A stretch of DNA of 64,000 nt from Kiritimatiellia bacterium (lineage in GTDB: Bacteria > Verrucomicrobiota > Kiritimatiellia > RFP12 > UBA1067): the NCBI GenBank assembly GCA_028686345.1, contig JAQUCE010000013.1, positions 1 through 64,000 on the forward strand, given 5' to 3'. This document shows positions 30,711-61,584 of this stretch, one piece after another. The translations under genes were made by a program, and so were the position numbers. A model generated the notes under the pieces. It was given only the letters and a program-made list of their open reading frames with translations. It was not told the DNA's origin and searched no databases. Position 1 is the first letter of the stretch; every line of letters starts with the position of its first letter.

Positions 30711-30760
30711 AAAACTGGTAGGCCAGGGGAGGCTCGAACTCCCGACCTGCGGATTAGGAA
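30711..30760. repeat. attachment site, left copy (3' part of tRNA-Arg)
   Basis: aaaactggtaggccaggggaggctcgaactcccgacctgcggattaggaa identical to 61503-61552. Confidence 0.95.
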
Positions 30761-59057: not shown

Positions 59058-59087
59058 AAAAAGGGCTAAAAATCTTTAGCCCTTTTT
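59058..59087. terminator. bidirectional intrinsic terminator between convergent genes
   Basis: aaaaagggctaaa-aatc-tttagcccttttt. Confidence 0.85.
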
Positions 59088-59294
59088 AATCTCCTGATTG
59101 CCGCCACTTAGTGGTGGCAATAACTGTTCAATCGCTCGCCAAACAGCCACATCCGGCGCCGACTCCACAATCTTTTCATGCAGTTCAACTGGGATTCTCA
59201 CATTTTTATATTCGGTTGCCACCCGGCTTCTCGCCGCCTTCCTGCGCTGTGCTTTCGCCGCCGCGGTCATAGTATAGTCGCGTTTTTTAGCCAT
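59076..59294 (-). CDS. small regulator-like protein, divergent to the CRISPR-repeat RNA locus
   Basis: MAKKRDYTMTAAAKAQRRKAARSRVATEYKNVRIPVELHEKIVESAPDVAVWRAIEQLL (RHH-like VRIPVELHEKI); RBS aaaaaagga. Confidence 0.55.
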   Translation of the reverse strand: MAKKRDYTMTAAAKAQRRKAARSRVATEYKNVRIPVELHEKIVESAPDVAVWRAIEQLLPPLSGGNQEIKKG

Positions 59295-59317: not shown

Positions 59318-59346
59318 TTGCATATCTGAGCAAACTTTGTTACTGT
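59318..59346 (+). promoter_or_regulatory. candidate promoter (TTGCAT-N17-TACTGT, extended TGn -10)
   Basis: TTGCAT 59318-59323; TGT-TACTGT; +1 expected near 59353. Confidence 0.4.
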
Positions 59347-59353
59347 TTTATTT

Positions 59354-59382
59354 GTCGCGAGGAAACTCGCGTGGATTGAAAC
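59354..59382 (+). repeat. solitary type I-C-like CRISPR repeat
   Basis: GTCGCGAGGAAACTCGCGTGGATTGAAAC; 6-bp stem CGCGAG/CTCGCG with GAAA loop; GTCGC...GCGTGGATTGAAAC matches the type I-C consensus ends. Confidence 0.75.
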
Positions 59383-59423
59383 ATATCTGTTGCCTGGAGC
59401 TAGCCCTTCGTGGCAAAAATTAA

Positions 59424-59456
59424 AGGGCCGGTGCTGAATTGCGCCGGCCCTTTTTT
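59424..59456 (+). terminator. intrinsic terminator
   Basis: agggccggtgc...gcgccggccct + tttttt. Confidence 0.85.
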
Positions 59457-59526
59457 CATTTTTTAGCCCTTCGTTTTTTTGGTTTAGTTTGGCCGGTGGC
59501 AGATGCCACCGGCGTGGGTGATAGGA

Positions 59527-60024
59527 TTACAAATCAACTTTGCAAGCATCGATCAGGTCGGCAAAGATAGCCTCGTCGGCCTCCTCCCAAATTGGATCGC
59601 CGTTTGTGTCTGCCCCGCGGACACAGCCAATCTGATAAAAGCGTACGCGTGAGTTTGGGTTATCTTGATTGCCATCGCTGTGCCCTTCGGCCAGCAGCTC
59701 GATGCGGTTGATATCCATGCGCTCGCACTCGGCAACAATGCCGGCGCTATTAATCTCGGTGACCTGGATGCCGTCTTTCGGAGAAAAATCAGCTGGCAGA
59801 TCCTCTACAAAAGTTTCGGCTGATTGGCTTGATATGTGGTAGCCATAGCCTGGCAGCTCGTACACTTTGGCGCGATTGATGCCATCAGGCACCGTGCCAA
59901 TAAAATAAACAGCCTGGTTGTGATAATCAGGATCAGTGCCGTAGCCGCAGTTGATTAAGGTTTGCAACGCGCCTTTTTCATCGGTTCCGCAGTTTTCTGC
60001 GATCATCTGGATCAATGTTTTCAT
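59527..60024 (-). CDS. acidic hypothetical protein (165 aa)
   Basis: ORF with strong SD (gaaggg) 6 nt before ATG; ~29 D/E vs ~11 K/R by my count. Confidence 0.65.
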   Translation of the reverse strand: MKTLIQMIAENCGTDEKGALQTLINCGYGTDPDYHNQAVYFIGTVPDGINRAKVYELPGYGYHISSQSAETFVEDLPADFSPKDGIQVTEINSAGIVAECERMDINRIELLAEGHSDGNQDNPNSRVRFYQIGCVRGADTNGDPIWEEADEAIFADLIDACKVDL

Positions 60025-60150
60025 TTTTTAGCCCTTCGTTTTGTTTTTGGGAGGAGCCTATCTCCTCTTTTCTGCCCCTATTATAACAAGTTTCGCAAGT
60101 GTACGCAACCCCGAAATGCAATTATTTTCACTTTATTTTCATTTATTTTA

Positions 60151-60283: not shown

Positions 60284-61333
60284 CTAATAATCCAAATCAA
60301 TCACCGCTTTTTTTACAGCCTCCATCAAAGCCGACCGCGAAGGCTGCGAATATCTACCGTGCATCCCCTGGCTGGCGTGGCCGGTAATCGCATCCGTAAT
60401 GTGCGGTGAAACACCCGCCTCATCCATCATACTGATAAAAGTTGCGCGCAAACTGTGGAAGCTGGCACTTCCAAATTGATTCGCGCCCACCCCGGCCCGT
60501 ACAAAAATCGCCTTCATTCTATTGCTGGCTGTATCGGCGCGCAGCCTTCGAAAAAAGCCAGGCGCCACCCCCTCCAGCGCCAGCCGGGTTCTCGGCAGCA
60601 TCGGGATCAGCAGCGGACGCCCTTTTTTAGCCCTCGTTTTGCCTGGGATCACGCGCAAAAAATCACCATCAAAAGCCCGCTCATCAATCTCCAGGCAGCT
60701 ACCCAGCCGTAGCCCGGTCGAAAATCCCAATCGCAGCAGCGCGCACTCCACTGGATCCGCAGCAGCCTCCAGCAATCGCCTCATCTCATCCTTAGAGATT
60801 CTTCTAAATCTCCCCGCCACAGCCACAGCCAAATCATGCCCCTCCCAAATCCCGGCATCCAGCCCCAGCCCTTTAAAGATCCTGGCGAACAGCCGACAAT
60901 CCCTTTTACCTGCCTCCGCGCTTCTGCCCTCCAGATATTTCGCCGCCTCCCCGTGGGTAATCACGCCCGGACCCTCCACGCCATTCAATTTCGCCCACCC
61001 ACCCAGCGCATTCACCGCGCCCTCATACGCTCGCAGCGTTCCAGCGTTCTGCGTCAGCCTTTTATTTTCTTTGCTCCAGCGCCAAAACAAATTATCCCAT
61101 TCGACATCAATTGGCGCCGCCTCCCTGATAAGCTGCGCCTTTGCCTTTTCGCCCAGCTCCACCAAAAACTCCAACCATCCTGTTTTAGGGTTCACCAGGC
61201 CCGGCACAAAATCAACAGCCCTTCTTTCCGCCTCAGCCTTATCCTCAGTTTTCAGTGCAAGCCATTTATTTTTATACACCAGGTAATATTTTTTACCTTT
61301 TTTAGTAATACATCCAGCATTCAGCCTAGCCAT
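60284..61333 (-). CDS. tyrosine recombinase / phage integrase
   Basis: LRLGFSTGLRLGSCLEI; FHSLRATFISMMDEAGVSPHITDAITGHASQGMHGRYSQPS; adjacent to tRNA att. Confidence 0.92.
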   Translation of the reverse strand: MARLNAGCITKKGKKYYLVYKNKWLALKTEDKAEAERRAVDFVPGLVNPKTGWLEFLVELGEKAKAQLIREAAPIDVEWDNLFWRWSKENKRLTQNAGTLRAYEGAVNALGGWAKLNGVEGPGVITHGEAAKYLEGRSAEAGKRDCRLFARIFKGLGLDAGIWEGHDLAVAVAGRFRRISKDEMRRLLEAAADPVECALLRLGFSTGLRLGSCLEIDERAFDGDFLRVIPGKTRAKKGRPLLIPMLPRTRLALEGVAPGFFRRLRADTASNRMKAIFVRAGVGANQFGSASFHSLRATFISMMDEAGVSPHITDAITGHASQGMHGRYSQPSRSALMEAVKKAVIDLDY

Positions 61334-61460
61334 TTTCGCCACCCTTCTAAGCAAATCTCTAATGATTTCTAAGATTCTTCTAAAAACGCTCCATATTATA
61401 ATCAATGTTGCTTTACGTAGCAATAAAAAATAAAAAACAAAAAAAACCGTTAAAAATCAC

Positions 61461-61502: not shown

Positions 61503-61552
61503 AAAACTGGTAGGCCAGGGGAGGCTCGAACTCCCGACCTGCGGATTAGGAA
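61503..61552. repeat. attachment site, right copy, inside the tRNA
   Basis: 50-bp identity with 30711-30760. Confidence 0.95.
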
Positions 61553-61584
61553 TCCGCCACTCTGTCCAACTGAGCTACTGGCCT
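61508..61584 (-). tRNA. tRNA-Arg (anticodon CCT)
   Basis: AGGCCAG-TA-GCTC...GCGGA-TTCCTAA-TCCGC...GGGAG-TTCGAGC-CTCCC-CTGGCCT-ACCA; CCA encoded. Confidence 0.95.

Follow-up and report, generated by a model that had tools for sequence, protein, structure and literature searches.

RNA anti-CRISPRs (Racr) are already known as a kind of element. RacrIC1, from a prophage of Bifidobacterium pseudocatenulatum, inhibits type I-C and lies 11 nt behind acrIC5, with which it is co-transcribed (PMC10651486). RacrIF1 acts via the part of its RNA that lies upstream of where Cas6f cuts, which is coated by a Cas7f filament, and its handle is dispensable; in type I-F, moreover, a non-targeting crRNA alone lowered interference (PMC10651486). 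In type I-C there is no Cas6: Cas5c cuts, and together with Cas7 it clamps the crRNA 5' handle and nucleates assembly (PMC7684278). Other described formats are CreR, the crRNA-like autorepressor RNAs of cas operons (reviewed in PMC12737573), and virus-borne mini-CRISPR arrays, in which repeats surround a targeting spacer (PMC6858448; reviewed in PMC11656645).

The element considered here is a solitary 29-nt repeat on the plus strand (59354-59382) of the window, i.e. the whole stretch of 64,000 nucleotides that was analyzed from a Kiritimatiellia bacterium. Folding of the repeat gives a 6-bp stem (arms at 59356-59361 and 59366-59371) with a GAAA loop (59362-59365) and an 11-nt tail that corresponds to the handle (59372-59382). 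An earlier sequence-only reading of the window had given the repeat with the same letters and coordinates, and its stem with a GAAA tetraloop is reproduced by the folding. We classify this element as a candidate type I-C RNA anti-CRISPR, probably a decoy for Cas5d and its partners; what sets the prophage copy apart is its unusually short hairpin. Like RacrIC1, it is a type I-C-like repeat standing alone in a prophage, with a host that is expected to face type I-C. In contrast to RacrIC1, which is linked to acrIC5 and for which inhibition has been shown, it has no adjacent known acr gene, possesses its own predicted promoter, and is a candidate from sequence alone. It shares with RacrIF1 the character of a repeat mimic, which the Cas protein responsible for crRNA processing is expected to bind and cleave; however, the upstream RNA is the acting part of RacrIF1, whereas little upstream RNA is predicted for the prophage element and the handle side would act instead.

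The repeat is followed and preceded by signals of a small RNA gene. A putative weak promoter occupies positions 59318-59346 of the plus strand, with the -35 hexamer TTGCAT at 59318-59323, a 17-nt spacer and the extended -10 element TG.TACTGT at 59338-59346 (TG at 59338-59339, TACTGT at 59341-59346), leaving 7 nt between the -10 hexamer and the repeat. These hexamers, their spacing and the extended -10 are as described in the sequence-only reading, but the promoter is weak: its PWM score is 6.6, the top site within 70 nt, and a consensus promoter scan did not call the TTGCAT/TACTGT site. The transcription start predicted from this site falls close to the repeat. Downstream, a spacer-like segment of 39 nt (59383-59421, plus strand), with no recognizable target and a predicted partial self-fold, leads into a terminator hairpin with a T run (59422-59458, plus strand), whose stem of 13 pairs was placed by the terminator scan at 59422-59453. 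About one terminator-like site is expected by chance in such a stretch, and the one observed has these 13 pairs. The terminator had been located before at 59424-59456, after a segment of 41 nt; its presence is upheld, while both boundaries are shifted by the scan. The predicted RNA of about 104 nt (folding z = -6.1), consisting of the repeat, the segment and the terminator, agrees with the approximately 100 nt proposed earlier. The element is intergenic, located between the minus-strand ORFs 59076-59294 and 59527-60024; an 81-aa plus-strand ORF spans it, and this ORF is mostly antisense to the ORF 59076-59294. The sole Rfam match was a tRNA.

The host genome contains, on another contig, a complete type I-C locus in which Cas3, Cas5, Cas8c, Cas7, Cas4 and Cas1 match their models, and an array of 32 identical 32-nt copies of GTCGCGCCCCACGCGGGCGCGTGGATTGAAAC beside the cas genes. 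The prior statement that the window lacks cas genes thus holds for the window, yet not for the genome. The first 6 and the last 15 bases of the prophage repeat are identical, in register, to the host repeat (21 bases), so that the two ends formerly called type I-C-like are exact matches to the host's own 32-copy array. The upper stem and loop differ, the upper stem of the host repeat being replaced in the prophage copy by a shorter, self-pairing one. The handle variant TGGATTGAAAC is common to the prophage element, its own host and a genome of the same genus (G018), whereas TGAATTGAAAC, not the prophage variant, stands at the end of several type I-C arrays in the order. The pattern GTCGC-N(4-11)-GCGTGGATTGAAAC has a single match in 162 genomes of the order, which is the prophage element itself, and none in the reversed control.

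Several features by which Racr elements are recognized can be read directly from these data. The repeat is solitary in a mobile element, with no second repeat and no cas genes nearby, and the CRISPR-Cas system of the host is of the same subtype (type I-C). In identity to the host repeat, the element falls far short of the SRUFinder threshold, which asks for 90% identity or more across 90% of a known repeat and is a search criterion rather than a functional one. In accordance with the earlier claim of a single repeat, no other copy of the handle with at most one mismatch was found elsewhere in the window; three handle copies with one mismatch occur elsewhere in the genome, and we rejected them as repeats since their 5' half is missing. 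We also compared the spacers with the prophage. Host spacers aligned to the window with at least 10 mismatches, as did shuffled sequences, and the same result was obtained for 94 spacers of the host and its relatives against the prophage; a search of host spacers against the rest of the host genome gave no convincing self-target. With neither a spacer of the host or its relatives aimed at the prophage nor a self-target found, nothing at present shows that an inhibitor is needed.

The prophage of approximately 30.8 kb is bounded by perfect 50-bp att repeats and located at tRNA-Arg. The left att copy (30711-30760) is identical to the right one (61503-61552), which overlaps the 3' end of the minus-strand tRNA-Arg(CCT) gene (61508-61584). 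The integrase (60284-61423, minus strand) matches Pfam PF00589 and a PHROG integrase family. Other prophage genes include the terminase, portal and head-protease genes, and the element is found between the holin-like gene region and the integrase. Close relatives of this prophage were not found (38% identity for the integrase, 27-34% for the portal protein), and the absence of the element in distant portal relatives says little because the genomes with portal relatives and the genomes with the repeat overlap only here. On one side of the element, the divergent 72-aa ORF (59076-59294, minus strand) has the look of a small DNA-binding protein with no family match and is a possible regulator of the locus. 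DNA matches at 59079-59129 were considered as homology of this ORF and rejected: they belong to a palindromic element that is dispersed in the genus and family of the host and overlaps the 3' end of the ORF. On the other side is the neighboring 165-aa ORF of unassigned function (59527-60024, minus strand), with no family match; none of the 112 genomes of the family that were compared contains a homologue. The structure models of both ORFs were too poor for use. On the minus strand, the leader and start sequence of this gene (AAAACGAAGGGCTAAAAAATGAAAA, about 60015-60040) is duplicated at 59452-59476, adjoining the terminator, and a third copy, which is partial, lies within the RNA at 59401-59411.

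Comparable elements were found in viral sequences, where the pattern GTCGC-N(4-11)-GCGTGGATTGAAAC matched 60 stretches, nearly all of them solitary. Solitary repeats with a short stem were found at 46 other distinct viral loci, or 47 with the prophage element. In these 47 elements, the stem continues inward for 2.30 pairs on average, compared with 0.65 when the middles are shuffled (highest of 2000 shuffles, 1.13), the three outer pairs set by the search pattern being left out of the count; each stem position is occupied by several pair types. Promoter-like sites are overrepresented at 5-9 nt ahead of the repeat: an automatically chosen non-coding set has 15 such sites, compared with 4.4 on average in 200 shuffles, none of which reached this number. 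This bin was picked after inspection of 12-14 bins rather than set in advance. In the same bin, all viral elements taken without a coding filter gave 10 versus 2.8 (0 of 150 shuffles), and the excess was weaker, 9 versus 3.1 (2 of 200 shuffles), after the prophage element and the cas-linked elements were removed. All these sets were chosen regardless of promoters. They supersede an earlier PWM promoter test that was biased by seven elements added by eye, some of them for a visible TATAAT. A simple count of TATAAT before the repeats was not significant (9 versus 4.3, shuffle maximum 12). Terminators were detected in 19 of 39 elements, starting 17-75 nt past the repeat and about half of them at 24-47 nt, as an uncontrolled count. 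Among the matches listed, repeats of 30 nt or less account for 41 of 127 solitary viral cases versus 2 of 72 in arrays, a ratio that is rough because the two scans differed in limits.

One viral contig (IMGVR_UViG_3300007351_000481, 57741 bp) carries three different short-stem solitary repeats (L052, L063, L072). In nine of 161 solitary repeats, the bases after the repeat duplicate those before it over at least 9 nt, compared with 0.22 expected from swapped flanks; such cases include L028, L047, L261, L273, L288, L340 and L344, with 34 nt shared in L288, and their sequences look like insertions with flank duplication. In addition, genomes of Azoarcus, Accumulibacter and Burkholderiales contain many copies of a dispersed element of about 70 bp (L078, L084, L085, L088, L090, L103 and more), composed of a hairpin and then a 29-nt type I-C-like repeat, usually followed by AT.

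A decayed, functionless leftover of a CRISPR array or of an insertion could account for a single copy with an altered stem and for the lack of a close relative showing conservation. This explanation is unlikely, however: decay would not keep both host-matching ends nor re-pair a replaced stem, and the comparable viral repeats are under the same constraint.

The sequence-only reading had left the choice between a decoy and a real guide. In support of the decoy, the analysis adds the host type I-C system, the bounded prophage and the comparable viral elements. A genuine guide directed at a different phage or plasmid, like those of virus-borne mini-arrays, would agree with the crRNA-like layout, in which the handle is followed by a spacer-length segment with a hairpin at its end, and in both cases a virus bears the repeat of its host. 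We nevertheless regard it as quite improbable, since mini-arrays have repeats around a targeting spacer, whereas the prophage element has one repeat and no target in the collections searched. The segment gave nothing above chance against plasmids, against phages, in databases that cover those of this lineage poorly, or against the host genome. Within the sequences searched, the reading of the prophage RNA as a real guide is not supported.

The question of a guide also arises for the cas locus itself, where look-alikes of the same shape were identified within or next to the type I-C cas genes of bacteria (L094, L114, L119, L120, L123, L129, L153, L154, L163, L173, L176, L181), often between cas3 and cas5 or adjoining cas3. 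In type I-C the PAM is TTC and the sixth base is flipped. We defined a guide score as the longest TTC-flanked match in the element's own locus that begins at segment base 1, with each sixth base free. Seed matches of 10-14 nt were obtained for seven of 98 chromosomal elements and for none of 294 with swapped segments. Six of the seven (L119, L120, L153, L173, L176, L181) are in loci with type I-C genes, while for the seventh (L129) Cas8c is encoded on a contig of the same genome; the presence of Cas8c in the hosts provides no independent support because several of the repeats sit in cas operons themselves. Judged by their sequences, the seed-matched cas-linked elements look like type I-C CreR autorepressors. 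Among the viral elements, one of 136 passed the seed test, and this case is a duplicated flank.

The short-stem, seed-matched repeats of bacterial cas operons give some weight to a phage CreR, in which the prophage RNA, also a short crRNA-like RNA with one repeat-like part, would lead the host Cascade to the cas operon or to its own promoter and repress it. In addition, the first bases of the segment, ATATCTG (7 nt), recur over the -35 region of the element. However, this match adjoins TGC rather than TTC, and about 0.6 such matches are expected per set of 76. With TTC at the flank, the prophage RNA matches the host cas locus (L009) over no more than 3 nt and the window over no more than 5 nt; the test that gives 10-14 nt for cas-linked elements does not recognize this RNA as a guide within the sequences searched. 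In contrast to CreR, the element is located outside the cas locus, in a prophage on another contig, and has no seed match to that locus. Altogether, a phage CreR is very unlikely. The presence or absence of a PAM-flanked seed match is a simple sequence test that separates autorepressor guides from decoys.

An ordinary antisense RNA for the 165-aa gene, with a merely secondary likeness to the repeat, is the least credible explanation: the RNA does carry UAGCCCUUCGU, which over 11 nt is perfectly complementary to the region ahead of that gene's start and is present in three exact copies within 640 bases, but among 202 start regions the predicted duplex comes only 29th, and the identity of 21 bases with the host repeat would be left unexplained.

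The preferred reading, a decoy for Cas5d and its partners, implies the following course of events. Transcription would start at about the repeat, and the host Cas5d would bind the stem base and the handle of the RNA and cut it at the stem base. Cas5d, possibly together with Cas7 and Cas8c, would be captured on the handle side of this target-less RNA, and the real crRNAs would be starved of Cas proteins. With almost no RNA predicted ahead of the repeat, activity would lie with the downstream product, i.e. the handle and the tail. A decoy without a target is plausible because a non-targeting crRNA alone was able to lower type I-F interference, as mentioned above. The predicted fold of the middle segment may hinder the loading of Cas7.

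The viral short-stem decoys and the CreR-like RNAs of cas operons might also represent two uses of one design, in which a shortened repeat forms the 5' end and is followed by a spacer-length segment and then a terminator. In that case, phages would have adopted the autorepressor format of the host and dropped the guide, and the resulting handle-side decoy would fill Cas5d, Cas7 and perhaps Cas8c, as a mirror of RacrIF1. We consider this common design rather doubtful.

If the decoy interpretation is true, the prophage carries a type I-C RNA anti-CRISPR that is matched to the array of its own host. The analysis further suggests that mimics with shortened and replaced stems would escape finders based on 90% identity, whereas a search by the ends of the repeat and their pairing finds dozens of them.
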